Shown one piece after another: positions 6,023 to 35,868 of a DNA stretch of 44,391 nucleotides; positions within the stretch are counted from its first letter, which is position 1, and every line of letters begins with the position of its first letter. Position numbers and translations under genes: made by a program. Under the pieces are notes generated by a model. The model worked only from the letters and a program-made list of their open reading frames with translations. It had not been told where the DNA came from and did not search any database. Source of the stretch: a virus; the IMG/VR virus record IMGVR_UViG_3300017788_000048, positions 1-44,391 of that record. The stretch is one strand, 5' to 3'.

Positions 6023-6049
6023 GTGTCACAAACTTTTATGGAGAAGATT

Positions 6050-7021
6050 ATGAAGAAAAAAGGTTTCACGCTTGTTGAATTGTTGGTAACAATTGCCATT
6101 ATTGGAGTTCTTGTTGGTTTATTATTGCCAGCGGTTCAAGCGGCGCGCGAAGCTGCACGAAGAATGAGTTGTAGCAACAATGTAAAACAGCTTGGTTTGG
6201 CTTTGCTTAATTATGAAAGCGCATTTAAAATGTTGCCGCCCAGCAGAATTGCCACAACCAATCCAACATTTCAGCAATCTTGGATGATGATGGTGCTGCC
6301 GCAAATGGAGCAAAATGTCAACTATTTAAGTTACGATAAAAATCTAAATTGGTTTCATCAAAATAATGCTACAGTAACAACGCAGCAAATACCTACATTT
6401 AAATGTCCGTCTGCACCAGAGCCGCGAGAATTGCCAACAATACAATTTTATGTGGCAAACGGAGTAACATATGGACAGCCAGTATTTGGACATTCGGATT
6501 ATGGATCTGTTAATGCTGTACGAAACGCTGCGTTTGTATCTAACGGATTGCCTTCTCTTGGATCTCGCGAGGTTATGGGGGCAATGGGTCGTGGACCTAT
6601 TGGCGTTAAACTTGCTGCTATAACTGATGGATTGTCAAATACGGTTTGCGTTGCAGAAGATGCGGGTCGTCCTACTATGTATATATCCGGAAGAAAATCA
6701 TTAAATCCTCGCGGCTCTGCAATTAATACTTTTTTTACTGTTGACGGTTGGGGATGGGCCGATATCAATGGGGGTTTTAGTGTTGATGGAGCAAACGCGC
6801 AGGGATTGCAAAACTCAACAAATAGCGCCGGAGCTACAACTATTGTTGGAAACTGCAATATGAATTGTACTAATGATAGCGAAATGTATGGATTTCACTC
6901 TGGTGGGTGTATGAATTTAAGATGCGACGGATCTGTACAATATTTATCGGTAAATACCGCTGGAAATGTGTTTGTGGCATTGCTAACCAGGGATTTTGGT
7001 GATATAATAGCAGAAGAATAA
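6050..7021 (+). CDS. DUF1559-type prepilin-like protein (planctomycete family)
   Basis: 323 residues from ATG 6050, with GGAGAAG at 6040-6046. The N-terminus [20 protein letters not shown] is a class III (type IV pilin) signal, cleaved before Phe6. It continues [20 protein letters not shown]-x-KQLGLAL, the signature of the DUF1559 family. Near the C-terminus, [12 protein letters not shown] fits the family's H-x9-DG motif. These proteins are massively expanded in Planctomycetes and have unknown, probably surface or secretion roles. Presence on a phage implies host acquisition and suggests a planctomycete host. The last codons contain the promoter for the tmRNA. Confidence 0.85.
6980..7008 (+). 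promoter_or_regulatory. Promoter of the tmRNA gene
   Basis: TTGCTA (6980-6985), 17-nt spacer, TATAAT (7003-7008), inside the 3' end of the DUF1559 coding sequence. Predicted start is about 7015, immediately before the first helix of the tmRNA acceptor piece at 7025. The placement is exact for an independent RNA gene. Confidence 0.6.
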
Positions 7022-7317
7022 AATCTGGCGCAAGCCAGTAAACATGTAGACGTTATTAACGAAACAAAACAAGACTTGGCTGCAATGCCAACAGGTCCAC
7101 CAAGAGTAATCTTGCCAAGCAATATTGACAAAAAGATTACTTCTGATGGGCCTGAAAAGTATCGATTGGTTGCGTAGCTAATAACTGCATGTAGTGGTTG
7201 ATCGAGAGGCCACTTAAATACTCGATTAATGTTTTAAATGACGTAGAAAACTACGCACTCGCAGCTTAGGTTGCGACGGGGCTTGCCAGTGCCTTGACAC
7301 CCAAACTGGCTTTTTTT
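7022..7317 (+). ncRNA. ssrA: Circularly permuted (two-piece) tmRNA gene
   Basis: Rescues stalled ribosomes by acting first as a tRNA, then as a message for a degradation tag. Seen here: the acceptor piece comes first, with hairpin CTGGC-GCAA-GCCAG (7025-7038), a T-arm-like hairpin TTGGC/GCCAA (7076-7091), CAGGTCC (7092-7098), A7099 and an encoded CCA (7100-7102). The intervening segment (7103-7147) folds as AGTAATCTT/AAGATTACT (7105-7113/7133-7141). The coding piece starts GGGCCTG (7148-7154), pairing over 7 bp with CAGGTCC (one G-U). A PK1-type pseudoknot follows: AGTGG/CCACT (7193-7197/7210-7214) and TTGATCGAG/CTCGATTAA (7198-7206/7221-7229). The tag frame to the stop at 7267-7269 reads ...LNDVENYALAA, close to the E. 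coli tag ANDENYALAA. The hairpin CGCAGC-TTAG-GTTGCG (7260-7275) holds the stop. The resume codon is uncertain (AAT 7237 or GAC 7240). The T-loop is only 6 nt. The gene has its own promoter and terminator. Confidence 0.85.
7285..7317 (+). terminator. Rho-independent terminator of tmRNA (possible pseudoknot)
   Basis: GCCAGT (7285-7290) pairs with ACTGGC (7305-7310), followed by seven T (7311-7317). GGG at 7278-7280 could pair with CCC at 7300-7302 across the loop, so the element may also be a 3' pseudoknot in the mature coding piece. Confidence 0.75.
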
Positions 7318-7389: not shown

Positions 7390-7575
7390 ATGAAGGTTCT
7401 GGATTTAGGGCATATCAAAACAACACCAAAAGCGATTCGAGAGCAGTTGACGATTGAGCTTGACGTTTTAAGACGATTTGGATTCCGCGACGACGAGTTG
7501 CGGATAGTGGGGTGCGAAAACTACAAGTGGCAAATTGTGCCAGCAAATGAAGAAGAACAAAATGAACAAGATTAA
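7390..7575 (+). CDS. Hypothetical small protein
   Basis: 61 residues, ATG 7390, GGAG at 7381-7384. Composition is mixed, with an acidic C-terminus (NEEEQNEQD). No recognised motif. It overlaps the HAD-like gene by 14 nt, so the two are probably co-translated. Base composition is GC-richer than the genome average here, as in the following gene. Confidence 0.5.
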   Translation: MKVLDLGHIKTTPKAIREQLTIELDVLRRFGFRDDELRIVGCENYKWQIVPANEEEQNEQD

Positions 7576-8074
7576 GTGCATAGCGTTTGATTGTTTCGGA
7601 ACGGTCTTTGACATGAGCAGAATAAGCCACGAAGAAATAAAAGCATACGTTGATCATGTGCGCAAAGAGGATTTTACACCGTTCAAATTTCCTGATTCGT
7701 GGTTTAACCTCAAGGCGCATCCAGATTCAGCGGAGGGCATTAAACGGTTGCAGCGCATGGGTTATAAGTGTGTAACGCTCAGTAATGGAGGATGGGGGAT
7801 GCTCGATAACATCTCTGCACTCAATGGCATTGGCTGGGATCACATAACAGACCTGATAGAGCATCGCGTCTACAAGCCGCACGTTGACGCATATCGAACG
7901 ATCCAAAAGGATTTGGGGTTTACGCCAGCAGAGACGTTGATGGTCACAGCCAATCCGACGTTTGGAGACATTGAAGGAGCGGCGGCAATCGGTATGCAGT
8001 CGCAGATCATACGGCAACCGGGAATGCCGCAAACGATTGTCGAGTTGTCGGAAAGGCTCGGTGCGCGGTGTTGA
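7562..8074 (+). CDS. HAD-superfamily hydrolase
   Basis: 170 residues from ATG 7562. HAD motifs: FDCFGTVFD at residues 8-16 (nucleophile Asp9; the DxFGT form typical of haloacid dehalogenase-like members), TLSNGG near residue 72 (motif II), YKPHVDAY near 104 (motif III Lys), and GDIEGAAAIGM near 138 (motif IV acidic residue). The fold dephosphorylates or dehalogenates small molecules; the substrate is unknown. GC-richer than its neighbours and complete in motifs, so it is probably a recently acquired bacterial gene. A phage role in nucleotide or sugar-phosphate metabolism is inference. Confidence 0.75.
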   Translation: MNKIKCIAFDCFGTVFDMSRISHEEIKAYVDHVRKEDFTPFKFPDSWFNLKAHPDSAEGIKRLQRMGYKCVTLSNGGWGMLDNISALNGIGWDHITDLIEHRVYKPHVDAYRTIQKDLGFTPAETLMVTANPTFGDIEGAAAIGMQSQIIRQPGMPQTIVELSERLGARC

Positions 8075-8116
8075 TACATTCAATTTTCGTAAATAAAAGA
8101 ATCATTGGAGAAGATA

Positions 8117-8782
8117 ATGAAAGAAACAGATAAAATTGTAGCGCGTTGCGTTGCCAGCGAAGATATGAAACGGCAGTATCCAGACATTGATCAGCGCACA
8201 GAAATGTGTCTTGCTCAAGCCACAGCAGATATGAGTGGTATAGCAGCGGCTGATTATATGTTTTGCTTTAAAGAATTTGGGTTTGAAGAAGAAGTCGATG
8301 AAGACAACTTTTACGTTCCAAGCGAATCTGAATATGTTTCTGCCGACGAAGTGCATTATGAAGAAAATGAAATAGAAGAGTGGGATATTGCCGCTGAAAA
8401 GCCTGGATTATGGGAAAATATTCGCAAGAAAAAAGAGCGAGAAGGAAAAAATTACCGGCCTGCCAAACCGGGAGACAAGGATCGTCCCAGCAAAGAGTCG
8501 TGGAAACGCGCACAATCTGGCGAGGGCGAAGCCGAAGGCGCAGAATATCAGGGGCGAAAAGTTAAGTTGGGCAAGCCATTTAGGACTCCTGACGGGCCTA
8601 AGAAGTTTAGCGTTTATGTAAAAAACGACAAGGGTAATGTTGTAAAGGTTAATTTTGGCGATCCCAACATGTCTATAAAGAAGAATATACCAGAACGACG
8701 TAAAAGTTTTAGGGCGCGACACAACTGTCAAACTCCAGGCCCAAAATGGAAAAGCAGGTACTGGGCATGTAGGAGCTGGTGA
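8117..8782 (+). CDS. Conserved phage protein with RC..QR..C motif and basic C-terminal domain
   Basis: 221 residues from ATG 8117, with GGAG at 8107-8110. The N-terminal module RCVASEDMKRQYPDIDQRTE-x-C recurs in the gene at 32646 (RCMGDETMKKEFPSQEQR-x3-C). The middle is acidic, then Lys/Arg-rich and low complexity. The C-terminal domain (FSVYVKNDKGNVVKVNFGDP ... RRKSFRARHNC ... RYWACRSW) has conserved-looking Cys, His, Trp and Arg residues. I recall such C-terminal modules in phage structural or scaffolding-associated genes but cannot name the family. Function unknown. Confidence 0.6.
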   Translation: MKETDKIVARCVASEDMKRQYPDIDQRTEMCLAQATADMSGIAAADYMFCFKEFGFEEEVDEDNFYVPSESEYVSADEVHYEENEIEEWDIAAEKPGLWENIRKKKEREGKNYRPAKPGDKDRPSKESWKRAQSGEGEAEGAEYQGRKVKLGKPFRTPDGPKKFSVYVKNDKGNVVKVNFGDPNMSIKKNIPERRKSFRARHNCQTPGPKWKSRYWACRSW

Positions 8783-8912
8783 TAAAAAAAAGATATAAGA
8801 AATTAATTTAAGTATGTTTTAGTTATTTGTCAAGAAAAATAATGACGTTTTATTCGTCTACAGTTCTTTTAAAGCCTGGAAATCTTATTACGAAAAATAC
8901 TAAAGAACCCCG

Positions 8913-8941
8913 TTGACTTTTATTGGATTATGCAGTATAAT
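8913..8941 (+). promoter_or_regulatory. Sigma70-type promoter upstream of tail-fibre operon
   Basis: TTGACT (8913-8918), 17-nt spacer, TATAAT (8936-8941). It lies in the 224-nt gap 8783-9006, which otherwise shows only AT-rich sequence. Confidence 0.65.
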
Positions 8942-8959
8942 AATTGTTGATAAAAACAC

Positions 8960-8989
8960 TTGCATACATTAAGGAGCTTTGTGTATAAT
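8960..8989 (+). promoter_or_regulatory. Second promoter with extended -10
   Basis: TTGCAT (8960-8965), 18-nt spacer, TATAAT (8984-8989) within TGTGTATAAT. It starts RNA about 12 nt before the ATG at 9007. With 8913-8941 it gives tandem promoters, suggesting regulated or high-level expression of the fibre genes. Confidence 0.55.
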
Positions 8990-9006
8990 ATTTTAGGAGA
9001 TATAAA

Positions 9007-9612
9007 ATGTATTTACAAAATTTAATCCAATCCGTTCCATCTTGGCAAACCAAAACGCCCGAGCAACTGCTTGCTGCGTTGTCTGATCCATCTATCGTCA
9101 TCGAAGACAATCGGCTCTACACATGGGCCGGAGTCGCGGCCATCGCTGGAGATGCCGGTGCATCGACGTTATGCTCGAAGCTAATTGAGTTCGGCAAGTT
9201 GTGGGCGGTGCATCAACTCGGCGGTGCTGGTCTTGACCTGAGCAACGAAGAGATTCAGCAACAACTGTATTACCTAGACTCTGTTGGCGTTCCTGGCATG
9301 GTCGCATTGGCCCAGGCGGCGCGAAAGCAAATCAGTCCGCTCGAGCAAGCGGGACTCGAAGCGACGGTAGAACAGGTGGCCGAGGCTCTCGATGATCTGC
9401 TTCATCCTACTGTACCGGATCAGCACTCGTTCGAGGTTTTGCTGTCCGTTAATCGTGGGGCAAATGGCGACATAAACGCATATGCTGCCGTCACACCAGT
9501 AGGTCTTCGAGATGGCAAAGTCGTTCAGCGTGGCGAACCGGTGCGGCACATAAACGGTGCTTTGCGTGATGCTGTTCAGCCTTTGCTTGATGCACTTGTG
9601 CGAGGTAACTGA
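9007..9612 (+). CDS. Probable virion-associated protein, GC-rich
   Basis: 201 residues, ATG 9007, preceded by TTTTAGGAGATATAAA (good RBS). Largely alpha-helical, Ala/Leu/Gln-rich (AGVAAIAGDAGASTLCSKLI), with a later strand-like segment. Base composition is distinctly GC-rich compared with flanking genes. Its last base overlaps the ATG context of the next, fibre-like gene, so it may be a tail, baseplate or fibre-associated protein. No family recognised. Confidence 0.5.
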   Translation: MYLQNLIQSVPSWQTKTPEQLLAALSDPSIVIEDNRLYTWAGVAAIAGDAGASTLCSKLIEFGKLWAVHQLGGAGLDLSNEEIQQQLYYLDSVGVPGMVALAQAARKQISPLEQAGLEATVEQVAEALDDLLHPTVPDQHSFEVLLSVNRGANGDINAYAAVTPVGLRDGKVVQRGEPVRHINGALRDAVQPLLDALVRGN

Positions 9613-11789
9613 TGGCTACGATTACTTCGACGGCATCGGGTAATTTCTCCGCTGGTGCAACCTGGGTCGGTGGCGTTGCTCCAGGTGCAAACGATGACGC
9701 AGTGGCGGCTACTGGTCACACTATTGTCATCGATACCGATGTTACGGTCATTTCGTTCCAGCAAGCCGGGACTGGTAAGTTTACGCTAGGCAATGGTCGT
9801 TCAGTTGTTGGCAACGTCATCGCCAACGCTGGCACGTTTACCAGTGGCGGTACGGTAGATGTAATTTGCGGCGCGGGTGAGTCTGCGACGATCACAGGCA
9901 ACGTCACAGGTGCGTCTACGACCACGTCTAACACTGCTGGCATCGTAGTCAGCGGCGTAGGAACGCTGACGCTCAACGGCACGGTGACAGGTTCGGCGGG
10001 CAATGGCAGTTCAGAGGCCAACGGCAGTGCTGGCGTGTACACGAACGTCAGTTGCACGATCACCGTTAACGGTGCGGTGGCCGGAGGAACTGGCAGCCAT
10101 AAGCGTGGAGTGCAGGCTGGGTCGTCGAGTAATGCGGCGATAACGATCAATGGCAATGTTGACGGTGGTAACGGCATTAATTCATACGGCGTATGGCATG
10201 CTGGCGCATCCGGCACGATCACCGCAACAGCAACGACTATCCAAGGCGGTAGTCAACTCGCAATCGGCATCTATCACACCGGCGCATCCGGCACGATCAC
10301 CGCAACAGCAACGACAATCCAAGGCGGCTTGATCAGCTTTGCATACGGCATCTTTCACACCGGCGCATCCGGCACAATCACCGCAACAGCAACGACAATC
10401 CAAGGTGGTGGCGGCAACCCCAGTGCTCTCGGCATCTATCACACCGGCACATCCGGCACGATTACTGCAACGGCAACGACGATTCAAGGTGGTGGTGGCC
10501 CCACTGCTCACGGCATCCGGCACGATGGCGCATCCGGCAACATAACATCCAGCGGCGAAGCCAAAGCAAACGGCACGGCATCGAGCGGAATTGATTCCTC
10601 TGCGACATCGTCAGCCAATGGCGTGTTTCACACCGGCAGTATCACCGACTCAACCGCTGGGCGTGTTGCTATCCGCGCATTATTCCTGCGTGTAGCATCT
10701 GGCACTGGCACAACGACACACGCCACACCGGGTTCGCCAACCGGATCGGCAAACCAGAGATTTTCCGCAGATCAAATTCTTGGCGTTCCGGCAGTTGGCA
10801 ACGTGCGAAGTGGAACCACCTACGGCAATCCTGCTACGCTAACCGGCACTCTTGCTGTACCGTCTGCCAGTCAAGTCGCAGTCGGCGTGGCAGTCGATAA
10901 CACGGTTGGCACTGCGGTGCTGACGGAATCGACGCTGAGAGCGGCAGTGGGTCTAGCGAGTGCAAACCTAGACGCACAGTTCGCGGCTATAAACGTGGAC
11001 TTTACGCCAGTGCTAAACCGTCTGCCATCGGCACTCGTGTCAGGTCGCATAGACGCAAGCGTAGGTGCAATGGCCGCTAATACGATTACCCAAGCATCAA
11101 TTGCTGCATCGGCACTCGATGACAAGGGCAACTGGCTCAAGCCCACCACCGCAGGACGAACGCTCGATGTCACTCCCGCAGGCGGGGTAGGGCAGGTCGA
11201 TACGGTCACTTTGGTTACTCAAATTGATTTGTTACAAACAGAGTTAGTTTTAGATCATGGACCAGTCAACTCTTCAACTGCCACGACAGTTACTTATTCA
11301 GCGACGAAACTAACTACGCCAGCAGCACTGGTTGGTGCTACCGTTTCAATTTACAACGATGATGCTAGCGAGTTGCGAGTAGGTCAAGCTCGAATTGTGA
11401 CAAATGCTGTCAGTGCGGGTGGTTCGTCGGTAACTTTGACAGTTGATCGAGCGTGGAATGTGAACCCTCAAGACGGAGGTCCAGATAAAATCGTATTGTG
11501 GGCATTTGGAAATGCGAGCGTAGCTGAGATGCGATCAAACACACTGACAGCTTCAGCATTGGCAACCGATGCGGTCAATGAAATTGCCGATGGGGTTCTG
11601 ATACGGAATGTATCTAACGTTGAAACAGTTGCTCCAGAACACTCATTAACTACTTTGATACTGGCTAATCTTGAAAATAATATATCTGGAACAACTTTAA
11701 CAATTAAGCGCACCGATGGAACAACAACTCATGTTACAAAAACATTAACAACAAGTCCAGCCGGGGATAAAATTACCGGAATACAATAA
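9612..11789 (+). CDS. Tail-fibre/adhesin-like beta-helix protein
   Basis: 725 residues from ATG 9612. Low-complexity Gly/Ala/Thr/Ser/Val throughout. Residues 1-190 (ATITSTASGNFSAGATWVGG start) resemble the opening of pectin-lyase-like surface proteins. Residues ~190-312 hold four to five copies of a 26-28-residue repeat (HTGASGTITATATTIQGG). Residues ~380-530 are helical and Ala-rich; the last ~190 residues form a different, strand-rich domain. Parallel beta-helix repeats are typical of phage receptor-binding fibres. GC content falls sharply near 11215, so the C-terminal domain has different ancestry. The fibre assignment is inference from composition, repeats and mosaicism. Confidence 0.6.
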   Translation: MATITSTASGNFSAGATWVGGVAPGANDDAVAATGHTIVIDTDVTVISFQQAGTGKFTLGNGRSVVGNVIANAGTFTSGGTVDVICGAGESATITGNVTGASTTTSNTAGIVVSGVGTLTLNGTVTGSAGNGSSEANGSAGVYTNVSCTITVNGAVAGGTGSHKRGVQAGSSSNAAITINGNVDGGNGINSYGVWHAGASGTITATATTIQGGSQLAIGIYHTGASGTITATATTIQGGLISFAYGIFHTGASGTITATATTIQGGGGNPSALGIYHTGTSGTITATATTIQGGGGPTAHGIRHDGASGNITSSGEAKANGTASSGIDSSATSSANGVFHTGSITDSTAGRVAIRALFLRVASGTGTTTHATPGSPTGSANQRFSADQILGVPAVGNVRSGTTYGNPATLTGTLAVPSASQVAVGVAVDNTVGTAVLTESTLRAAVGLASANLDAQFAAINVDFTPVLNRLPSALVSGRIDASVGAMAANTITQASIAASALDDKGNWLKPTTAGRTLDVTPAGGVGQVDTVTLVTQIDLLQTELVLDHGPVNSSTATTVTYSATKLTTPAALVGATVSIYNDDASELRVGQARIVTNAVSAGGSSVTLTVDRAWNVNPQDGGPDKIVLWAFGNASVAEMRSNTLTASALATDAVNEIADGVLIRNVSNVETVAPEHSLTTLILANLENNISGTTLTIKRTDGTTTHVTKTLTTSPAGDKITGIQ
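10186..10545 (+). repeat. In-frame tandem repeats, period 78-84 bp
   Basis: Cores of GCATCCGGCACGATCACCGC type begin at about 10206, 10283, 10364, 10448 (ACATCC variant) and 10529 (diverging). Spacing varies in steps of 3 bp, keeping frame and encoding 26-28-residue units. Near-identical DNA in the first copies implies recent duplication or ongoing homogenisation. Confidence 0.85.
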
Positions 11790-12119: not shown

Positions 12120-12316
12120 TGTTTTATTTACAAGATAAAAAAACGGTTGTTGATTCTTTTGGCGACAAAGTGGGGTTTTTTGTTAACGGAAAATTTTGCC
12201 AAATAATTCGCCAAAAAGGAGACAAGCCGGTGTCTGCTGACGCAAGATATGCAGAGGGGCTTTCTCCAATGGAATTAGAACAATTATCGGAACTGTTGCA
12301 ACGACAAAAAGTATGA
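12119..12316 (+). CDS. Hypothetical small protein
   Basis: 65 residues, ATG 12119 with GAGGAGG upstream and TAATG coupling to the previous gene. Strand-like N-terminal half and a helical C-terminus (SPMELEQLSELLQRQKV). ATGA overlap with the dCMP deaminase gene. Function unknown. Confidence 0.5.
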   Translation: MFYLQDKKTVVDSFGDKVGFFVNGKFCQIIRQKGDKPVSADARYAEGLSPMELEQLSELLQRQKV

Positions 12317-12774
12317 AGTGGGATTTAAGATTTTTGGGTCTAGCGAAACACATTTCTGAATGGTCGCTAGATCCATCTACGAAGGTTGGAGCAGTTATCG
12401 TTGATGATAAAAACCGCGTAATTTCTTTGGGTTTTAACGGTTTTCCCCGTGGTATAAAAGATGACGATAGATTGTTGGATAGAAACAAAAAACTCGCAAT
12501 AATTCTTCATGCAGAAAAAAATGCAATTATTTTTGCAAATAAAAATCTTGAAAATTCGGTAATATACACATATCCATTTCAGCCGTGCAGCGTGTGCGCG
12601 GCATCTATTATACAATCTGGAATCGCTAGAGTTGTTTCAGTTGTTAACTATAATACAAGATGGGCCGACAGTTTTAAACTTTCAAAGGAAATGTTTGCAG
12701 AAGCTGGCGTAGAATTGTGTCTTTACAAACCAGAGGAATTGAGAGCGTCTACTGACTATGAAAATCAAGTTTAA
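12313..12774 (+). CDS. dCMP (deoxycytidylate) deaminase
   Basis: 153 residues. It converts dCMP to dUMP, feeding dTMP synthesis. Zinc-site motifs are present: HAEKNAI (His66, catalytic Glu68) and PFQPCSVCAASI (Cys92, Cys95). The N-terminal MKWDLRFLGLAKHISEWSLDPS-x-KVGAVIVD segment matches the deaminase fold, and GFNGFPRGIKDDD matches the dCMP-specific form seen in phages. It overlaps its neighbours by 4 and 17 nt. With the dUTPase, reductase and dNMP kinase it forms the nucleotide supply set. No thymidylate synthase is visible in this window. Confidence 0.9.
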   Translation: MKWDLRFLGLAKHISEWSLDPSTKVGAVIVDDKNRVISLGFNGFPRGIKDDDRLLDRNKKLAIILHAEKNAIIFANKNLENSVIYTYPFQPCSVCAASIIQSGIARVVSVVNYNTRWADSFKLSKEMFAEAGVELCLYKPEELRASTDYENQV

Positions 12775-13302: not shown

Positions 13303-13365
13303 TGCGGTATTGTGTAAACGGATAACACGGTCTTTGACAATATGGGTTCGACTCCCATTTCCGCA
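13303..13365 (+). tRNA. Shortened tRNA-like element (Gln-like, degenerate)
   Basis: TGCGGTA (13303-13309) pairs with TTCCGCA (13359-13365) with one mismatch. The D-arm is GTGT/ACAC (13312-13315/13325-13328) with loop AAACGGATA. The T-arm is ATGGG-TTCGACT-CCCAT (13342-13358). A CTTTGAC segment looks like a tRNA-Gln(UUG) anticodon loop, but the 3' anticodon strand and variable loop are missing (63 nt in total). An alternative fold pairs TATTGT with ACAATA. No CCA is encoded. It is either a decayed tRNA or a tRNA mimic, for example a processing signal. Confidence 0.4.
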
Positions 13366-24228: not shown

Positions 24229-24594
24229 ATGCCACAATATAACTTATATTGCGATGATTGCGATCAAGATATAGAAATATTTTGCAGCATATCTGAATAC
24301 GACACACGAATGAAAAATGTAATATGTCCAAGCTGTGCATCTAGAAATATTTATAGAAATTATCAAGAAGATAATGTATATTCAACTATTAAAGATATCC
24401 GGACGGTTGGTCAACTAGCTGAATATAATACTAAAAAAATGGGTTCTAAACTAAATGAAGAATATGAAAAAACAAAAATACCAGAAAAAAAACCATGGTA
24501 TCAAAGCGAAAAATATGGAAAAGCTTCAAAACAACAAATAAACAAAATGACAAAAGAGCAAAAAAAAGATTACATTCTTGGGGGAGATAAATGA
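24229..24594 (+). CDS. FmdB-type zinc-ribbon protein
   Basis: 121 residues, ATG 24229 with GAGGAGG upstream. N-terminal MPQYNLYCDDCDQDIEIF...VICPSCAS has two CxxC knuckles like the FmdB/CxxC_CxxC_SSSS putative regulatory family. The C-terminal 70 residues are very basic and helical. Nucleic-acid binding is plausible. ATGA-coupled to the next gene. Confidence 0.6.
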   Translation: MPQYNLYCDDCDQDIEIFCSISEYDTRMKNVICPSCASRNIYRNYQEDNVYSTIKDIRTVGQLAEYNTKKMGSKLNEEYEKTKIPEKKPWYQSEKYGKASKQQINKMTKEQKKDYILGGDK

Positions 24595-24914
24595 AGTATA
24601 TAATTGAAGCAGAAGAATTGCCAGAAAACACAATTAAGCAAAATAAATTTGATAAAAATGGAAATCCTACACATTCAAAAGAATACTATGCTGAATCAAC
24701 CGAAGGAAAAAATGGACTAAATTATTTCATAAAAACCTTTAGTAGCCTTATATATGATCCATATGGACCATACTCAAAAAGAGAATCAACTCTTGATCTT
24801 AAATTAAAAAAAGTTTCGTTAAAAACATTTAATAACTATATAGAATACTTAAAAACTAAAAATCTAAAATATCTTACAATTGCCCAAAGGGGATTTATTG
24901 ATGACCGAGCCTAA
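24591..24914 (+). CDS. Hypothetical protein
   Basis: 107 residues, ATG 24591 with a strong GGGGGAG upstream. Mixed alpha/beta with many Lys and Tyr (YFIKTFSSLIYDPYGPYSKR). No motif recognised. Overlaps the next gene by 14 nt. Confidence 0.5.
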   Translation: MKYIIEAEELPENTIKQNKFDKNGNPTHSKEYYAESTEGKNGLNYFIKTFSSLIYDPYGPYSKRESTLDLKLKKVSLKTFNNYIEYLKTKNLKYLTIAQRGFIDDRA

Positions 24915-25251
24915 AAATCAACGTATGACTATTGTTGAAAGATTTTATATTGAAAACAATTGGGAAATATTAGATATTGATACTCTTTCTAAACATACAA
25001 AAATACAAAAGAAAAGCATTCAACGGTTTATAGAAAAATTAAAAATCAAAAAAGATAAATCTCAACTTGAACACAAAGCTGGTGTCGCGCAAACATCTCC
25101 TGTAACAATTTCTGCACAAGATATGATTGCAAGAAAAGGTGTCGCCATAATGACAAAATCAGCCGCAGAACTTGGTGACGAAATACGAAAACAAGTTAAA
25201 AAAAATTCTTCTCAACACTGCACTGTTCAAATAAAGGAAAATAATGTCTAA
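24901..25251 (+). CDS. Putative HTH DNA-binding protein
   Basis: 116 residues from ATG 24901; AAAGGGGA eight nt upstream sets this start over TTG 24880. Residues ~15-50 (FYIENNWEILDIDTLSKHTK-IQKKSIQRFIEKLKI) look like a helix-turn-helix. The C-terminal part contains SAQDMIARKGVAIMTKSAAE. A regulatory or small-terminase-like role is conceivable, but the neighbours are replication genes. Tentative. Confidence 0.45.
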   Translation: MTEPKNQRMTIVERFYIENNWEILDIDTLSKHTKIQKKSIQRFIEKLKIKKDKSQLEHKAGVAQTSPVTISAQDMIARKGVAIMTKSAAELGDEIRKQVKKNSSQHCTVQIKENNV

Positions 25252-25651
25252 TTGGATAAGTTGTTACAGAACAAATAAAAATGCCATATGGATAAAATGC
25301 GTTTTAACTAATGATGAAGAAGTATATCTCGCTAGTTTTAAAGACTGGCCAGCATTGGCTAATAGGCTAGAAAATGAAAGATTATTTTTTAAAAAACTTT
25401 CATTACAATTCAAATCTCATGAAGTTATGCTTGATATTGAAAATTGTCAAGGGGTCTATTTGGTTAGATCTGTTATTGGTCAATTGACGGGATATACAAA
25501 AGAAACTATTACTTTTGGAAAAGTTAGTGGTAATAATATTCATAAAATAGTTTACATGTCGCCAGAATTGATAGAAGAAGAATCCTATATGGATACACTT
25601 GCAAATTCTTTTGAAGAGGCGATTATTTATGACAAAACGCCAAAGAACTGA
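25244..25651 (+). CDS. Hypothetical protein
   Basis: 135 residues from ATG 25244. Alpha/beta sequence with CYRTNKNAIWIKCVLTNDEE and an acidic C-terminus (EEESYMDTLANSFEEAI). No family recognised. Overlaps both neighbours. Confidence 0.5.
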   Translation: MSNWISCYRTNKNAIWIKCVLTNDEEVYLASFKDWPALANRLENERLFFKKLSLQFKSHEVMLDIENCQGVYLVRSVIGQLTGYTKETITFGKVSGNNIHKIVYMSPELIEEESYMDTLANSFEEAIIYDKTPKN

Positions 25652-26087
25652 AAAAAGAAAATATAAACATACCACCACTGGTGATTATTGTACTTGTGCT
25701 GCATATATTGCAGAAATGATGTGTTTAAGATTGGCAGAGTATAAAAAAATATCCGGACTGGCATTTAAATTTTGGAACAATAAACCTTGGGATTGGACTT
25801 TTAAACGCCAAATGATGGTTGCCAATAAATTAATCAAAGAATATGGCGAATCGTTAATAATTAAATCATTAAATTCTAATGAATTAAAAAGTATTTTTTC
25901 ATTGACTCATCCTAAAGTAAAACGGGTTTTAGAAAAAAATAAACTTTCTTTTAAAGAAATTCAAGTAAAACCTGTAGAAAAAATAGAAACAAACGTTGCA
26001 ACTCGCAATAAAGCATTTGGAAAAAAATCACAACTTAGCAAATTGAGGAAACTAGATGGCAAAAACGGCGAAAAAGAATCAACATGA
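25629..26087 (+). CDS. Hypothetical basic protein
   Basis: 152 residues from ATG 25629, with GAAGAGG upstream; TTG 25599 is a longer alternative. DYCTCAAYIAEMMCLRLAEY at ~16-35, then FWNNKPWDWTFKRQMMVANK, and a Lys-rich C-terminal third. The Trp-rich centre and basic ends suggest nucleic-acid binding. It directly precedes the recA-like gene with a 32-nt overlap, so a role in recombination is possible. Confidence 0.5.
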   Translation: MTKRQRTEKRKYKHTTTGDYCTCAAYIAEMMCLRLAEYKKISGLAFKFWNNKPWDWTFKRQMMVANKLIKEYGESLIIKSLNSNELKSIFSLTHPKVKRVLEKNKLSFKEIQVKPVEKIETNVATRNKAFGKKSQLSKLRKLDGKNGEKEST

Positions 26088-27171
26088 TAGCGATATATTT
26101 TCTAGTGATTTTTTAGAAAAATATGGAAAGATTATTGAAAACGGCCAAAAAGTACTTGATGATTTATTAGAATTAAAGGTTATTAGCATATCTCCAGCGT
26201 TAGATATTGCTCTTGGCGGGGGCTTGCGCGAAGGTAGTGTTGTTGTCATGACCGGAGATGCTAAGACAGGCAAAAGTTCCACTGCATTATACTTTGCTGC
26301 TAAGTGTCAATCTTTGGGTAAAAATGTTATGTATTTTAATACCGAGGGCCGAATTACAAAAGAAAATTTTACAGGAATAAAAGGTCTTGATCCGAGTAAA
26401 ATTACCATTGTTCAAACAACCGATCAGAACCCGGTGGTATCAGCAGAAATGTATTTAAACAGCTTAGAACATTGCATTAAAAATGTTCCAGATTTGGTTT
26501 GTATCATAGATTCAGCATCCAACATGGTTCCACAAGAAGAGTTAGACGGAGAAATTAGAACTGGAGTAAGAAATTCTCTTCCAAGATTACTATCTATGTT
26601 TTGTAAACGAACAAGCGGAGATGTACACAGAAATAAAGCTATACTTATTTTTATTACTCATAACATAACAAATACTGCTCCGGCCTCTAAATATTCTCCG
26701 AGCAAAGTTGCAGATTGCGGCGTGATGATTCAGTATCAAGCCGGAACAAACATGGTAATCACTCATCGTGGCAAATGGGAAGTGCCAAAAGATAGCGGAA
26801 ATCACGTTGGTCAAATAGCAAATTGGGTGATCAAAACATCTGCGGCTGGCGGAAAACCAAACTCTACCGCTGAATCTTGGATCAGATACGGCATTGGCAT
26901 AGATGAAACACAAGAAATTGCGCAGCTTGCCACGCAGTTTTCTTTTATCAAAATGAAAGGGGCTTGGTATGAAATTTCTACGTTTATTGAAAATAAAAAC
27001 GCAGAACCGGTAAGAAAATTTCTAGAAAAACAAAATGTAGACTTGACAAACGACGAAGCTGTGTTAAAATGTTTTAAATTCCAAGGCATGGAGAGGCTAG
27101 TAAACTTCTTAAAAGAAAATGAAGCACTGGCAATATTTTTATATCAAAATATTAAAGAGGCGTTGCTATGA
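26056..27171 (+). CDS. RecA/UvsX-like recombinase
   Basis: 371 residues from ATG 26056 (GAGGA upstream). The RecA core runs from residue ~42 (ISISPALDIALGGGLREGSV) with Walker A GDAKTGKSS (~66-74), a Walker-B-like VCIIDSASNMVPQEE (~153) and LIFITHNI (~197). The C-terminal ~100 residues diverge. It catalyses homologous pairing and strand exchange on ssDNA. Sequence style fits phage UvsX/RecA rather than a bacterial RecA. It is followed by a nuclease and a helical protein that may be accessory factors. Confidence 0.85.
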   Translation: MAKTAKKNQHDSDIFSSDFLEKYGKIIENGQKVLDDLLELKVISISPALDIALGGGLREGSVVVMTGDAKTGKSSTALYFAAKCQSLGKNVMYFNTEGRITKENFTGIKGLDPSKITIVQTTDQNPVVSAEMYLNSLEHCIKNVPDLVCIIDSASNMVPQEELDGEIRTGVRNSLPRLLSMFCKRTSGDVHRNKAILIFITHNITNTAPASKYSPSKVADCGVMIQYQAGTNMVITHRGKWEVPKDSGNHVGQIANWVIKTSAAGGKPNSTAESWIRYGIGIDETQEIAQLATQFSFIKMKGAWYEISTFIENKNAEPVRKFLEKQNVDLTNDEAVLKCFKFQGMERLVNFLKENEALAIFLYQNIKEALL

Positions 27172-27584
27172 AAATAGTGGGCCTAAATAATAGAGAGTAT
27201 AATATAAATCTAAATAAATACGCCAAAAATCATAAAAAAACAAACAAATCTTCATTTCATCTTGAGGCCCGTAGACTATTAAAAGAATGCTTTCCGTCAT
27301 ATTTTATTTATGAAGAAGTTAGTCTTCCAGGATCTACAAACCCTAAAAATAAATCCGTATTATATTTAGATTTTTTTATACCAAATTTAAAAATTGGTGT
27401 CGAAATTCATGGTCGTCAGCATTTTGAATATGTTCCATACTTTCATAAAAACAAATTGGGATTTGCCAATCATAAATATAGAGACAATTTAAAATTAGAA
27501 TGGTGCGACAGAAATCAAATTAAATTAATTATTTTAAGATACGATGAAATTGACTTATGGAGAGCGCAAATTGAATGCTGCTAA
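27168..27584 (+). CDS. VSR/DUF559-like endonuclease
   Basis: 138 residues, ATGA-coupled to recA. SFHLEARRLLKECFPSYFIYEE (Glu ~35), then VLYLDFFIPNLKIGVEIHGRQHF (Asp ~62, Glu ~73) and KLIILRYDE give the very-short-patch-repair / PD-(D/E)XK layout of a single-strand nicking or repair endonuclease. Phage homologues act in recombination, repair or homing. Adjacent to recA, so junction or end processing is likely (inference). Confidence 0.6.
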   Translation: MKIVGLNNREYNINLNKYAKNHKKTNKSSFHLEARRLLKECFPSYFIYEEVSLPGSTNPKNKSVLYLDFFIPNLKIGVEIHGRQHFEYVPYFHKNKLGFANHKYRDNLKLEWCDRNQIKLIILRYDEIDLWRAQIECC

Positions 27585-28029
27585 ACAATTAGACAATTTT
27601 ATGTGTGCATTGTCTGACTATTTTAGTAAAATAGGAATAGATAAAACAGCGCATCGTCCAGAATTTAATGAGGTAGAATTAATGTCTATCAATGATATGG
27701 ACTTATTAACCAAAGACGCCTGTTTTAATTGTGCGTATGTATTATACCAGTATGCCGATTATATATCCACAGACTTAAATAAATGTAGAGCAATTTTTTA
27801 TTGGTGTGAAAATTCTTTAAACGAAATAGTTTCTAGAGAAATTAATGATTTGCCACAGTTCAATAAACACGATATTAAAGTTGCAGAAATAATTCGATCA
27901 AATGTTGTCGCAAAAAACTTAAATGACTGGAAAATTAAAGCACAATCTAGAATTAATTTTCTTGAATCAAAAGAACAAAATATCCGCAGACGAGCAGAAT
28001 GCTTAATTGAAAAAGGAAAAAGAAAATGA
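27571..28029 (+). CDS. Hypothetical helical protein (possible recombination mediator)
   Basis: 152 residues from TTG 27571, chosen because GGAGAG lies 6 nt upstream and the overlap is a normal 14 nt; ATG 27544 in the same frame gives 161. All-helical with four Cys in FNCAYVLYQYADY-type segments, and a basic coiled-coil end (RAECLIEKGKRK). Position after recA resembles that of UvsY-type loaders, but no sequence motif proves it. Confidence 0.45.
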   Translation: MNAAKQLDNFMCALSDYFSKIGIDKTAHRPEFNEVELMSINDMDLLTKDACFNCAYVLYQYADYISTDLNKCRAIFYWCENSLNEIVSREINDLPQFNKHDIKVAEIIRSNVVAKNLNDWKIKAQSRINFLESKEQNIRRRAECLIEKGKRK

Positions 28030-28418
28030 GTTTTGAAGAATTTATCAACGGTTTAACTCCAGAACAGATGGAAAAGTTAAAACAAGCACTAAACGCAACC
28101 GGCTCGTCAAAACCAACCGCAAAAACTGAAATAAAACAATTGCCCGATAGACAGTCTACTGGCGAAAATTTTACTACTATTAAACAAGAAAGAAGAGGAA
28201 GAGAACCCGTGAAAGCCAAGAAAAATACTTGGGAAGACCATGGAGAATTTCGGGATGATGAAAATTTAAGAATGCCCAAAGTTGATCCATCTCCAAGAAG
28301 TCGTGAAAAATCCAAAAAAGTGGAAGTAGAATGCCACGTTTGCGGTAAAACATTCTTTGAAGACCCAAGATACATCTATGGGGAATATATGAGATGTTCA
28401 CGTTGCGGCAGGAAATAA
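28026..28418 (+). CDS. Protein with C-terminal zinc ribbon
   Basis: 130 residues, ATGA-coupled. N-terminal helix (FEEFINGLTPEQMEKLKQAL), a long disordered basic middle, then CHVCGKTFFEDPRYIYGEYM-RCSRCGRK (two CxxC pairs), a classic zinc ribbon. Probably a small replication or recombination accessory protein that binds nucleic acid or the helicase encoded next (inference). Confidence 0.6.
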   Translation: MSFEEFINGLTPEQMEKLKQALNATGSSKPTAKTEIKQLPDRQSTGENFTTIKQERRGREPVKAKKNTWEDHGEFRDDENLRMPKVDPSPRSREKSKKVEVECHVCGKTFFEDPRYIYGEYMRCSRCGRK

Positions 28419-28419
28419 A

Positions 28420-29874
28420 ATGGCAGAACTAATTGATACCGGTGCTGAACGCGCGGTATTGTCTGGATTATTTTCATATGGAATGGATGTTTATGTTGAA
28501 ATATCCGACATAGTTAACTATGAAACATTTGGAAATTCTAGCAATCAAACTATCTATAAATGTATTCAAAAGGTTTTTGAAACAAACCCCAAGTTAGATA
28601 TTCCATCCTTACTTTCGGCAGCAGAGCAAATTGGATTATATTCTGCTATTAGTTCTACAACTGAGCTAGAATATATAAACCTACTTATTAAGTATCCGGT
28701 TGCCAAAGAAAATGTTTTAAATTTTGCAATTCAGATTAAAAAATTTGAGTTTGCCAGAAACATTAAAAGTATTGCTAATTCTATTTCTAGAAATATTGAA
28801 AACATCAAAGGCGATGAATCTGTTGATGAAATTATTTCTATAATAGAGAAACCAGTAATCGATTTTATACGCGACGATAGCTTATCTAGAAAACCAGAAA
28901 AAATCTGGGAAAATGTAGACGAATATATTCAGTATCTCATTGATAATAAATGTGACCAAATAGGTATTGCTACCGGGTTTAATCGCTATGATAAAGCTAT
29001 TGGAGGCGGATTACGTCGCAAATGCGTGGATATTATTTCGGCGCGCCCTAAAATGGGCAAAAGCGCTCTGGGTGATAATATAGCAATAAATATAGGTCTT
29101 AATGGTATTCCTGTGCTTATGCTTGACACTGAGATGTCGAAGGAAGATCATTTAAATAGAATCATAGCCAGCATGACTGGAATAGAAATTAATAAAATAT
29201 CTACCGGAAAATTTTCAGAAGAAAAAGAAAATATAGAAAAGGTTCAAGCCGCAGTAGAAAAACTAAAGGGCGCAAAATATACCTATGCTAGTGTTGCCGG
29301 TGCGCCGTTTGAAAATATCATCAATACAATTAAGCGCTGGATACTTCACGAAGTTGGCCATGATGAAAATGGCAGGACAAATGAGTGCGTCGTTATTTAT
29401 GACTATTTAAAATTAATGTCTTCGTCGTCTATCAGTAATAACCTACAGGAATATCAGGTGCTAGGCTTCCAAATTACGTCGCTGCATAATCTTGCTGTTA
29501 AATATGACTTTCCATGCCTAGCCTTTACACAATTAAACAGAGACGGCATTACGCGCGAAACAACCGATGTTGTAAGCGGTTCTGACCGCATTATTTGGCT
29601 TTGCACCTCATTTTCTATTTTCAAAGATAAATCGCCAGAAGAACTTGCGGAAGACGGTCCAAATGCTGGCAACAGAAAATTAATTCCGATTGTTTCGCGG
29701 CACGGCCCAGGAATGACCGATGGAAATTATATTAATATTAAATTAGAGGGCGACAAATGCACTGCTAAAGAATTGCACACGCGAGACGAGTTTTACGCTT
29801 CAAGCAGAAGTTCTGATCACGGTTTAGAGGGGGCCGACGCGCCATTTGATCCAGATGATGACATATACGCATAA
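28420..29874 (+). CDS. dnaB: DnaB-type replicative helicase
   Basis: 484 residues, ATG 28420, AGGA upstream. N-terminal DnaB domain (GAERAVLSGLFSYG...), linker, then a RecA-type motor: GFNRYDKAIGGGLRRKCVDI, Walker A SARPKMGKSALGDN (~207-220), LMLDTEMSKEDHLNRI (motif 1a), CVVIYDYLKLMSS (Walker B) and LAFTQLNRDG (motif 3). It unwinds DNA at the fork as a hexamer. Length is normal for DnaB. The 3' end overlaps the primase gene, as expected for a helicase-primase pair. Confidence 0.9.
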   Translation: MAELIDTGAERAVLSGLFSYGMDVYVEISDIVNYETFGNSSNQTIYKCIQKVFETNPKLDIPSLLSAAEQIGLYSAISSTTELEYINLLIKYPVAKENVLNFAIQIKKFEFARNIKSIANSISRNIENIKGDESVDEIISIIEKPVIDFIRDDSLSRKPEKIWENVDEYIQYLIDNKCDQIGIATGFNRYDKAIGGGLRRKCVDIISARPKMGKSALGDNIAINIGLNGIPVLMLDTEMSKEDHLNRIIASMTGIEINKISTGKFSEEKENIEKVQAAVEKLKGAKYTYASVAGAPFENIINTIKRWILHEVGHDENGRTNECVVIYDYLKLMSSSSISNNLQEYQVLGFQITSLHNLAVKYDFPCLAFTQLNRDGITRETTDVVSGSDRIIWLCTSFSIFKDKSPEELAEDGPNAGNRKLIPIVSRHGPGMTDGNYINIKLEGDKCTAKELHTRDEFYASSRSSDHGLEGADAPFDPDDDIYA

Positions 29875-30871
29875 AACAGATTTAAATGTTTTGGCCAGTA
29901 GAGTTTTTGAGAATTTAGAAATTTTGCTGGATTCATTTAAATTAGATTACAAACGTGTTAGTTCCAACAAATACTGTTTGCCATGCCCAATTCATGGTGG
30001 CAATAACGAAACTGGTGTATCCATACTAATCGAAAGAAAGCTGTGGGGTTGCTGGACTCATAATTGCCATGAAGAGTATGGTAAAAATATATACGGTTTT
30101 GTGCAGGGCGTTTTATCTACACATAGCGGAAAAACCGCCTCATTCAAACAAGCGCTGAATTATCTTATTAAATTATACGGTGATCAGCCAGTATTAAACG
30201 AGACAATTCAATACTATAATACCTATGATGATTTTGCAAAAATAGTAAAACTTTTTGACCGCCCACAAACTAATGACCCTTGTGAATTATTTCCTATTAA
30301 TTTAAATTTATGTTCAGAATATTTTATTAAACGAGGTTTTAGCCAAGCGACTCTGGAATATTTTGGCGTTGGGGAATCTGATGAAATTAAAAACCGAGCA
30401 ATGATTCCGATTCATAATGAACACGGAGGCTTTGTTGGCTATATTAGTCGATCAACAAAACCCTATGTTATTCCTAAATTTTTGTTTTCTACTGGTTTAA
30501 ACAAGACCGATTATCTGTATAACTATAATAGAGCCATTGAACATATTCGCAATAAAAATTCAATCATTCTTGTTGAAGGACAGGGTGATGTTTGGAGATT
30601 ATTTGAGGTCGGTGTTTTAAATGCCATTGGTTGTTTTGGCAAAGATCTTTCGGGCAAGCAAATTGAACTATTATTAAAATCTGGCGCAACAAACTTAATT
30701 GTTTTGTTAGACGATGATGAAGCTGGCAGAGAAGCCAAATTCAAAATACAAAGAATGTTGCACAAATTATTTAAAATTAAATTTCCTAAACTATATAAAA
30801 AAGATTTAGGGCAATGCGTAGTAGAAGAAGTAAAGAATTATATCTTACCACAAATTAAGGGTTATTATTAA
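29855..30871 (+). CDS. DNA primase (DnaG-like, TOPRIM)
   Basis: 338 residues from ATG 29855; ATG 29858 and TTG 29846 are equally possible because no clear RBS is visible. The zinc-binding part CLPCPIHGG...WGCWTHNCHE lies at residues ~44-74. The TOPRIM domain at ~235-290 has SIILVEGQGDVWRLF and NLIVLLDDDEAGREAK. Shorter than bacterial DnaG (no helicase-binding domain seen). It makes RNA primers for lagging-strand synthesis with the adjacent helicase. Start is the weak point, not the function. Confidence 0.85.
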   Translation: MMTYTHKTDLNVLASRVFENLEILLDSFKLDYKRVSSNKYCLPCPIHGGNNETGVSILIERKLWGCWTHNCHEEYGKNIYGFVQGVLSTHSGKTASFKQALNYLIKLYGDQPVLNETIQYYNTYDDFAKIVKLFDRPQTNDPCELFPINLNLCSEYFIKRGFSQATLEYFGVGESDEIKNRAMIPIHNEHGGFVGYISRSTKPYVIPKFLFSTGLNKTDYLYNYNRAIEHIRNKNSIILVEGQGDVWRLFEVGVLNAIGCFGKDLSGKQIELLLKSGATNLIVLLDDDEAGREAKFKIQRMLHKLFKIKFPKLYKKDLGQCVVEEVKNYILPQIKGYY

Positions 30872-31638
30872 TGACTAAAATTATTGGTTTTCTTGGAAGA
30901 AAACAATCCGGCAAAAATACCTGTTCTAATATGATGCACGGCTTTGAGCTTCAAAAGCGAGAAATGATTCGCGATTTTAAAATTGAAGATACGGGCAAGT
31001 TGGCAATTTTAACAGAAAATGCAGCGGGCCAAGTTGGTTGGGGCGAATTTGATGTTACAAGAAAAGATGATGATTTTGCTCAGTGGGCACATATGAACAT
31101 GTGGCCGTTTATTAAAAATTATGCGTTTGCAGATGAATTAAAACGAATGGCAATTGATTTATTTGATGTTCCTCCAGAATGCGTTTTTGGCACTGATCAA
31201 CAGAAAAATCAGGCGCAAGAACATTTACGGTGGGAAAATATGCCGGGGATGTTCGACGAACAAAAACGACAAAAATGGTCTGGCTCAATGACTGCTCGCG
31301 AATTTATGCAATTTTTCGGAAGCGAAATTATGCGCAAAATGCATGGGCTTGTATGGATTAATAAAACGCTTCGACAAATTTCTATGGAACAAAGCGCTAT
31401 TGCAATTATTTCAGACGTTAGGTTTCCAAACGAAGCAGAAGCAATTAAACTCGCTGGCGGTATTATTGTTAAGCTCAATCGTAAACAAAAAACAAAAGAC
31501 CTCCATCAAAGTGAAGAAGGAGTGGATTTGGTAGATGCATCTATGATCGATTATAACATTCAAAATAATAAGAAAGGATACGATTTAGATAGTCTGCAAT
31601 CTAATATCAAACAAATTTATGATACAATTATATTATAG
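30871..31638 (+). CDS. Deoxynucleoside monophosphate kinase (T4 gp1-like)
   Basis: 255 residues, TAATG coupling to primase. P-loop GFLGRKQSGKNT at residues 6-17; FADELKRMAIDLFDVPPE; TAREFMQFFGSEIMRK; AIAIISDVRFPNEAEAIKLA near 185 - the hallmark layout of phage dNMP kinases. It phosphorylates dNMPs to dNDPs. Completes the nucleotide supply set with nrdJ, dut and dCMP deaminase. Confidence 0.8.
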   Translation: MTKIIGFLGRKQSGKNTCSNMMHGFELQKREMIRDFKIEDTGKLAILTENAAGQVGWGEFDVTRKDDDFAQWAHMNMWPFIKNYAFADELKRMAIDLFDVPPECVFGTDQQKNQAQEHLRWENMPGMFDEQKRQKWSGSMTAREFMQFFGSEIMRKMHGLVWINKTLRQISMEQSAIAIISDVRFPNEAEAIKLAGGIIVKLNRKQKTKDLHQSEEGVDLVDASMIDYNIQNNKKGYDLDSLQSNIKQIYDTIIL

Positions 31639-32671
31639 ATCGTCGAGTCTAGGAGCGTTTGACTTTTGCCAAATGCAATTTTATATTGTTTATGGATTAG
31701 GTTGGCGATCCCCATCTCAAAAAAAAGCAAATTTGGGAACTGTGGTTCATAAGGTTTTAGAAGTATTGGCTAATTTTAAGCTTTTAACACAAGAATCCAC
31801 CCAACAATCATATGCATATAAAGATGAAGAACTTGGAGAGTTCAATTTTACTCCAAAAACTCTACAATCTCAAAAACTAGTTGACGAAATACTAATCAGA
31901 TCGTATAATCATTATACCGCAAGTACGCCAGAAATCTCTTATACCAAAGCAGATTTTAAGTTTTGCGCAGATATGGTTGAAGCTTGTTTGCGTCATGATA
32001 GTGGCCAGTTTGATCCAAGACACCAAACAATCTTGGCTCCTGAAAAAAGTTTTGATTTAGAAATTAATGAGCCTTGGGCAAGAGTAGAATACAATGGCGA
32101 AATTAGACAATTAAGAATCAAGGGTACTATGGATTTGATTACAGTTCCGGAAACAGGAACGATTGAATATGTAGATTACAAAACGGGAGCGCGTAAAAAT
32201 TGGGCTACTGATGAAGAAAAAACATACGCAAAACTACATGATGATATACAATTATTGCTATATTTTTATGCAATACGTAAATTATACCCAGAATATAAAA
32301 ATATTATCATGACCATTTTCTTTTTGAGAGATGGTGGCCCATTTAGTCTATGTTTCGATGATCAAGATGAAACTAGATTTTTGAAAATGTTAGAAAAGAA
32401 ATTTGTAGAAATTAAAAATTGTACACAACCAAAACCGATTAATCCCTGGCGAAGCGGTTTTAAGTGTGAAAAACTCTGTCATTTTTATAAAAACAAATGG
32501 CCGGGCACAGACAAGACTATGTGTCATCATGTTGAAGACACAATTAAAACCTATGGTATAGAAAACGCTACCGCTAAATTATCTAAGCCCGGTTTTAGTA
32601 TTGATTATTATTCAGCGCCAGGATCAACTGATAAAGGAGAAAACAATGCCGATTCCAAGCAAGAAGGGTAA
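31619..32671 (+). CDS. RecB/Cas4-like PD-(D/E)XK exonuclease, probable Fe-S
   Basis: 350 residues from ATG 31619 (20-nt overlap with the kinase). Motifs in order: SSLGAFDFCQMQFY (first Cys ~17), NLGTVVHKVLE (~39), LRIKGTMDLI (~170), TIEYVDYKTGARKNW (~181) and DIQLLLYFYAIRKL (~207), the RecB-family nuclease set. C-terminal KCEKLCHFY...TMCHH adds three Cys, so with the N-terminal Cys a 4Fe-4S cluster as in Cas4/AddB is likely. It would resect DNA ends in recombination. Confidence 0.75.
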   Translation: MIQLYYRSSSLGAFDFCQMQFYIVYGLGWRSPSQKKANLGTVVHKVLEVLANFKLLTQESTQQSYAYKDEELGEFNFTPKTLQSQKLVDEILIRSYNHYTASTPEISYTKADFKFCADMVEACLRHDSGQFDPRHQTILAPEKSFDLEINEPWARVEYNGEIRQLRIKGTMDLITVPETGTIEYVDYKTGARKNWATDEEKTYAKLHDDIQLLLYFYAIRKLYPEYKNIIMTIFFLRDGGPFSLCFDDQDETRFLKMLEKKFVEIKNCTQPKPINPWRSGFKCEKLCHFYKNKWPGTDKTMCHHVEDTIKTYGIENATAKLSKPGFSIDYYSAPGSTDKGENNADSKQEG

Positions 32672-32945
32672 AGAAAAACCCAATGATTTTATGCAACGTT
32701 GTATGGGTGATGAAACGATGAAGAAAGAATTTCCTAGTCAAGAACAAAGAGTTGCAGTTTGCATGTCAAAAGCCGTTGAAGATTTGGATCACTTAGAAGC
32801 TGCCGATTTTGCTTTAACATATGGCAAAACAAAATACAAATACCGCAACCCAAAAACAAATGAATACTTTTTCTATGATAGAAAGGGTGTTTATAAAAAG
32901 GATGGCACAACACTCGTTCCAGATTTTGATTCAGAAGAAGACTAA
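32646..32945 (+). CDS. Small protein with RC..QR..C motif
   Basis: 99 residues from ATG 32646, AAAGGAG upstream. Contains RCMGDETMKKEFPSQEQR-VAVC, clearly related to the N-terminal motif of the protein at 8117 (RC, M-K, P, QR, C in matching positions). The C-terminus is Tyr/Lys-rich (YKYRNPKTNEYFFYDRKGVY). The stop overlaps the polymerase ATG. Function unknown; the paralogy with 8117 is the main clue. Confidence 0.55.
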   Translation: MPIPSKKGKEKPNDFMQRCMGDETMKKEFPSQEQRVAVCMSKAVEDLDHLEAADFALTYGKTKYKYRNPKTNEYFFYDRKGVYKKDGTTLVPDFDSEED

Positions 32946-34447: not shown

Positions 34448-34493
34448 GGAATTGTGTATTAATATATGTCTAAATTCACCAAAGGAGACTTAT

Positions 34494-35165: not shown

Positions 35166-35180
35166 TTTAAGGGAAATTTA

Positions 35181-35861: not shown

Positions 35862-35868
35862 GAAAATT

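Follow-up and report, generated by a model that had tools for sequence, protein, structure and literature searches.

Does this phage locus encode a tmRNA whose acceptor and coding halves have exchanged places, and if so, where did such a gene come from? The window (the whole 44,391-nt stretch analyzed, IMG/VR virus record IMGVR_UViG_3300017788_000048) had been described from its letters alone as carrying a permuted two-piece tmRNA gene, with Rfam covariance models named as the check. Model RF04321 (tmRNA_permuted, the merged model of permuted tmRNAs; PMC11915505) matched positions 7042–7269 of the window over its full length (1–213 of 213) with 57.7 bits (E 1e-10), against a gathering score of 47 bits. 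The 299-nt stretch was also predicted to fold more stably than its shuffles (z-score -4.6). The models of the separate bacterial types did not reach their cut-offs: alpha_tmRNA (RF01849) scored 36.1 bits over model positions 40–193 only, on the acceptor side (cut-off 50), and beta_tmRNA (RF01850) scored 23.5 bits over positions 206–304 only, covering the tag and the 3′ hairpin (cut-off 84). The model cyano_tmRNA (RF01851, cut-off 70) was never the best of the clan for the window or its relatives.

RF04321 also gave 50.7–53.6 bits to three standard tmRNAs (L245, L228, and L239), which is above its gathering score, so that the score alone is no proof of permutation. The permuted order is instead established by the gene order, by the absence of a downstream acceptor half, and by the relatives. 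The acceptor half (7092–7102) precedes the coding half (from 7148), and none follows downstream. As had been claimed, there is no tRNA-like half after the tag: searching the window for a standard-order copy with RF00023 (the standard tmRNA model, whose cut-off of 47 bits the window copy does not reach) yielded only a 17-base, 12.9-bit fragment at 13342. The score, the gene order, and the relatives together confirm a phage-borne tmRNA gene of the circularly permuted, two-piece kind at 7025–7317, its start being set by the 5′ hairpin at 7025–7038. The pieces named in the preliminary description (CAGGTCC-A-CCA at 7092–7102, GGGCCTG at 7148–7154, the 45-nt hairpin insert, PK1, the stop at 7267–7269, and the T-run) all lie where it had placed them. 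The features of the locus are as follows.

6023..7021, + strand: DUF1559 / N-methylated pilin-like gene, directly upstream of the tmRNA gene (PF07596, E 7e-51)
6980..7008, + strand: possible promoter, TTGCTA, 17 nt, TATAAT, with TG before the -10 (10 of 12 matches), within the 3′-terminal part of the DUF1559 gene
7025..7038, + strand: 5′ hairpin of the acceptor RNA, CTGGC-GCAA-GCCAG (fits alpha_tmRNA model positions 40–53; kept in relatives)
7042..7102, + strand: acceptor RNA (from sequence, covariance model, and relatives)
7042–7048, 7052–7058, 7065–7067, and 7070–7072, + strand: P2 5′ strands, in the acceptor RNA
7076–7080/7087–7091, + strand: T-arm with 6-nt loop TGCAAT, in the acceptor RNA
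7092–7098, + strand: acceptor 3′ strand CAGGTCC, followed by A73 (7099) and CCA (7100–7102)
7103..7147, + strand: intervening sequence of 45 nt, expected to be removed, with a 9-bp hairpin (AGTAATCTT/AAGATTACT)
7148..7154, + strand: acceptor 5′ strand GGGCCTG, 5′ end of the coding RNA, with the G3-U70 pair formed with 7096
7155..7192, + strand: D-loop-like part and P2 3′ strands (7166–7168, 7169–7172, 7179–7185, and 7186–7192; from relatives)
7193..7229, + strand: PK1, with stem 1 at 7193–7197/7210–7214 and stem 2 at 7198–7206/7221–7229
7240..7269, + strand: tag frame GAC GTA GAA AAC TAC GCA CTC GCA GCT TAG, DVENYALAA and stop
7279..7317, + strand: 3′ end of the coding RNA, terminator-like, with a hairpin (7285–7289/7306–7310) and a T-run (7311–7317)
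7279–7281/7300–7302, + strand: possible pseudoknot in the 3′ end of the coding RNA (from the beta_tmRNA model 3′ end and relatives)
12313..12774, + strand: dCMP/cytidine deaminase gene, which follows the tmRNA gene in relatives and serves as synteny anchor

Promoter-like sites were no more numerous in this region than in shuffles, and the site at 6980–7008 is suggestive only. Current gene finders miss genes of this kind. ARAGORN reported only a tRNA-Gly in the window and was silent on the tmRNA of its nearest relative as well, and cmscan with default filters over the whole window missed the gene. BLAST of the window tmRNA against known phages returned no match.

Queries with UvsX and DnaB of the window retrieved a family of viral contigs that are collinear with it over about 30 kb. 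Many members carry RF04321 matches of 68–94 bits, most of them directly upstream of the deaminase gene. We aligned the window with 10 relatives from this collinear family (11 sequences). Across the acceptor stem, T-stem, P2, PK1, and 3′ hairpin, 96.9% of the cells hold standard pairs, against 32–47% in slid controls, and 18 of 54 pairs have changed on both sides. RNAalifold, run unguided, returned the same nested helices, with double changes in 21 of 53 pairs. All 7 pairs of the acceptor stem form in all 11 sequences, with double changes at three positions: GGGCCTG/CAGGTCC of the window differs from GGGGGCG/CGCCTCC of most relatives by three compensated pairs. The G3-U70 pair is present throughout (11/11), and the discriminator A is kept. 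A 5′ hairpin of 4–6 bp, differing in sequence, occurs in 9 of the 10 relatives and is weak in the other (G635), while the spacing from the discriminator base to GGG ranges from 12 to 127 nt without conservation of its sequence. Loss of the 7092–7098/7148–7154 pairing and of the tag frame in related phages had been named as evidence that would count against the gene; both are kept in all 11 sequences. These patterns indicate that the tmRNA helices, PK1, G3-U70, A73-CCA, and the alanine-ended tag frame are maintained by selection in the phage family.

A chance T-arm-like hairpin beside a short reading frame, with no tmRNA at all, might be argued from an RF04321 score just 11 bits above cut-off and from the silence of ARAGORN. 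The relatives refute this: every part shows compensatory changes and the synteny is conserved, which leaves coincidence next to no probability.

The alignment also corrects the tag, which had been given as NDVENYALAA, one codon too early. A nine-codon tag frame is found in 11/11 sequences, preceded by TAANY and beginning with G; the first codon is GCA, GCT, GTC, or GGC in the relatives and GAC in the window. Aligned with the 10 relatives, the resume codon is thus most likely GAC at 7240–7242 and the tag (A)DVENYALAA, with AAT at 7237 probably left untranslated. Among the tags, that of G635 (GVENYAMAA) comes nearest to the nine encoded residues, DVENYALAA. Besides P2 and PK1, the gene has a tag frame that ends in hydrophobic, alanine-rich residues.

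The T-loop had been called odd, and its six bases (TGCAAT) were confirmed; other relatives have 7 nt, except G603, the nearest one. The window and G603 share the TGCAAT core together with a D-loop that is one base shorter. By eye, the equivalents of G18 and U55 appear to have been lost together in both, with those of G19-C56 retained. These changed loops might indicate a decaying copy or a decoy that sequesters SmpB rather than an active tagger, and a phage tmRNA consisting of the tRNA-like domain only (DS6A), or a similar one, inhibits tmRNA in E. coli (PMC11915505, PMC4131195). Unlike DS6A, however, the window copy retains the tag frame, the resume signal, PK1, and P2. The six-base core is found in the closest relative as well, which argues against decay, and the T-stems of the window and G603 are wholly different in sequence yet both paired, which favors function. 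We therefore consider a decoy or decaying copy very unlikely, although the window copy could be weak, given its changed T- and D-loops, traits that G603 shares.

Our preferred reading, to which we assign a probability of roughly 0.9, is a working phage-encoded permuted tmRNA that would be processed, charged with alanine, and used for tagging, and that would descend from a planctomycete-type gene permuted in the phage branch. Following established tmRNA biology, one transcript would be cut by tRNA-processing enzymes, with RNase P cleaving before G7148 and 7103–7147 being removed after the CCA. The two pieces would be held together by the acceptor stem and P2, charged with alanine by a host enzyme, and bound by host SmpB; no SmpB gene was recognized among the window proteins scanned, which included part of the small frames. 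The tmRNA would then enter stalled ribosomes, translation would restart at GAC 7240, and ADVENYALAA would be added as a degradation tag, probably keeping ribosomes free during infection. As to its origin, a planctomycete-type standard tmRNA would have been acquired by the phage family and then circularly permuted in the branch of the window.

The neighborhood of the gene bears on both the phage family and its host. The window keeps the order from tmRNA to deaminase, but other genes, about 5 kb in all and some of them richer in G+C, are inserted between them. The stretch at 7390–11789 has a G+C content of 0.42–0.54, compared to about 0.34, and is absent there in relatives; weak relatives of its part at 9007–11789 lie at another place in G638. 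The same phosphoesterase gene precedes the tmRNA in both G603 and the window, with the DUF1559 gene intervening in the window. All 44 confirmed genome-contig matches of the DUF1559 gene were from Planctomycetota, with up to 67% identity (Pirellula). Its base composition is phage-like (GC3 0.31, versus 0.55–0.66 in planctomycetes). A contig artefact or chimera was considered and is argued against by this composition and by the G603 synteny. A second contig (G001) matches the window at 10373–44391 with 99.8% identity, and another (G002) matches 24474–44391; neither reaches the tmRNA. Two large viral contigs, G638 and G639 (L190, L191), carry a planctomycete-type DUF1559 gene, and no tmRNA was found on them. 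G638 belongs to the phage family of the window and has a related DUF1559 copy in the same neighborhood. Elsewhere in the window, DNA polymerase III alpha appears to be split into two frames with an exonuclease and other genes between them (32945–38047), and a 1327-aa frame at 38336–42319 combines glycosyltransferase parts with intein (Hint) and LAGLIDADG homing-endonuclease domains, possibly representing more than one intein.

Based on the affinity of the tmRNA and the adjoining DUF1559 pilin gene, the host is probably a planctomycete. The preliminary description had hinted at planctomycete-like genes, and this is supported by the exclusively planctomycetal DUF1559 matches and by the tmRNA trees. 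Searches of planctomycete genomes for homologous DNA or the phage DnaB as evidence of the host returned conserved-gene fragments or nothing, and the isolated relatives of the window phage that were found are only remote ones.

Five large members of the same phage family (G617, G618, G620, G627, and G631; L203–L207) carry no permuted match over cut-off but a standard one-piece tmRNA at 96–122 bits (RF00023), three of which ARAGORN misses. Tags of these genes include GEVTLALAA and ADTSVLALAA, and behind the tag they keep a pseudoknot similar to what the permuted coding RNA has at its 3′ end. A branch with 99/99 support in the DnaB tree separates permuted from standard members.

To place both forms, trees were built from 147–165 columns of homologous parts (63 nt of the acceptor side and 100 nt of the coding side), with phage permuted, phage standard, planctomycete standard, E. 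coli and other standard, and beta-, cyano-, and alpha-like permuted genes as rows. The permuted types had been collected with an 18-base pattern, which might bias the trees; we therefore removed these columns and rebuilt the trees, and the result was unchanged. Phage permuted and phage standard genes grouped at 96/100, 100/99, and 98/98 (the latter two without the 18 bases), and planctomycete standard tmRNAs joined next (99/97, 93/93, and 92/94). The phage permuted genes were separate from the permuted genes of alpha, beta, and cyano type, with the cyano types on other branches. Scores above the RF00023 cut-off identified a standard tmRNA in 47 of 60 Pirellula-family genomes.

Acquisition from a permuted alpha, beta, or cyano lineage, as for phage Melnitz, with the planctomycete likeness arising from short sequences, would agree with several relatives that match beta_tmRNA over its full length at 66–77 bits (under the cut-off of 84) and with the beta-like 3′ hairpin. 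Holding all permuted genes together cost 26–34 log units, with AU p-values of 0.0505–0.0596, and is thus not clearly rejected. Holding the phage genes together with the beta permuted ones was, however, rejected (AU p 0.030–0.043). The nearest planctomycete standard tmRNA was also on average 14 points closer in identity than the nearest bacterial-type permuted one, an order reversed in 0 of 500 column resamples, and the sister-phage standard genes grouped with the permuted ones with bootstrap values of 96% in one of the three trees and 98–100% in the other two. We consider such an acquisition unlikely.

Alternatively, the permuted form may be the older one in the family, with the sister phages having regained the standard order or taken a planctomycete gene independently. 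The trees are unrooted with respect to gene form, and the standard phage genes sit at genomic places other than the permuted ones, so that replacement by another gene is possible. Both forms nevertheless group with planctomycete standard tmRNAs, and no permuted gene of their own was found in 392 Planctomycetota genomes searched with RF04321, under stricter filters that may miss copies as divergent as that of the window. This too makes for an improbable history. A planctomycete chromosome was considered as a source of the permuted form; the only match over the RF04321 cut-off, G209, lies on a 9.2-kb contig that reads T4-like by eye (gp32-like protein) and is thus probably phage DNA. This contig (G209:C27; L089 / L077) carries an alpha-like permuted tmRNA with 78 bits to RF01849 and the tag ANESYALAA, which ARAGORN misses. 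Neither an initial pattern search of viral sequences nor BLAST with the alpha-like phage tmRNA yielded a match.

Returning to a permutation within the phages, the columns behind it are short and partly paired, and suggest, with moderate support, a separate circular permutation inside the phage lineage, apart from the three bacterial cases. The grouping was first suggested by viewing the sequences, and several branches are long, making the evidence good but not final. On balance, we lean towards a fourth permutation, which took place in phages from a planctomycete-type standard gene and left both forms in sister clades.

Compared to the alpha, beta, and cyano permuted tmRNAs (RF01849, RF01850, and RF01851), the phage gene has the same order of acceptor, insert, and coding parts, a two-piece tRNA-like domain, PK1, and a tag. 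Unlike them, it is nearest to planctomycete standard tmRNAs, resumes at a putative GAC codon, and stays below the alpha and beta cut-offs; the 6-nt T-loop core further sets the window and G603 apart. P2 and PK1 resemble those of the Pirellulaceae standard tmRNA, for example GCATGTCGAGGTTGGTCAG...CTGACTAAA (phage G021) versus GCGTGTCGTGGTTGGTCAG...CTGACTAAA (L088). Relative to the standard genes of Pirellulaceae and sister phages (RF00023), the order is swapped and the region between the first post-tag pseudoknot and P2 is lost, while the pseudoknot after the tag is common to the window family and the sister phages. To our knowledge, none of the tmRNAs of mycobacteriophages and Bacillus phage G is in permuted form. 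These are phage-borne too (listed in PMC4131195), that of DS6A being a tRNA-like domain only.

A permuted tmRNA on a phage with planctomycete-like genes had been thought unusual. Phage-encoded permuted tmRNAs as such are already published: of 133 distinct phage tmRNAs, 53 were called two-piece, and 50 of these 53 came from marine or aquatic phages (PMC9004378). Like the window, Melnitz, pelagimyophages, and cyanophages carry a complete permuted ssrA (PMC9004378). The published two-piece genes, however, group with alphaproteobacterial, gammaproteobacterial/beta, or cyanobacterial genes, whereas those of the window family group with planctomycete standard tmRNAs and have sister phages with the standard form. 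The permuted models derive from three main clades of bacteria (PMC11915505). In the main texts of the papers searched, we found neither a planctomycete-type permuted tmRNA nor both forms in one phage family; the sister clade with the standard form and the planctomycete affinity look new. Two further viral sequences carry permuted genes of known types: Synechococcus phage Sf-FS3 (L226, PV340856.1 20255–21515) has a cyano-type tmRNA (143 bits) that is unannotated in its GenBank record, and viral contig L243 has a beta-type one along with a predicted tRNA-Pyl.

How tmRNA genes came to be permuted has been difficult to investigate, since the cases known so far are ancient and fixed throughout entire groups of bacteria. 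A phage family whose sister clades differ in gene order would permit a comparison of before and after, and direct tests of the costs and benefits of permutation. We know of few phages of planctomycetes, and the gene points to phages that bring their own ribosome-rescue RNA to these bacteria.
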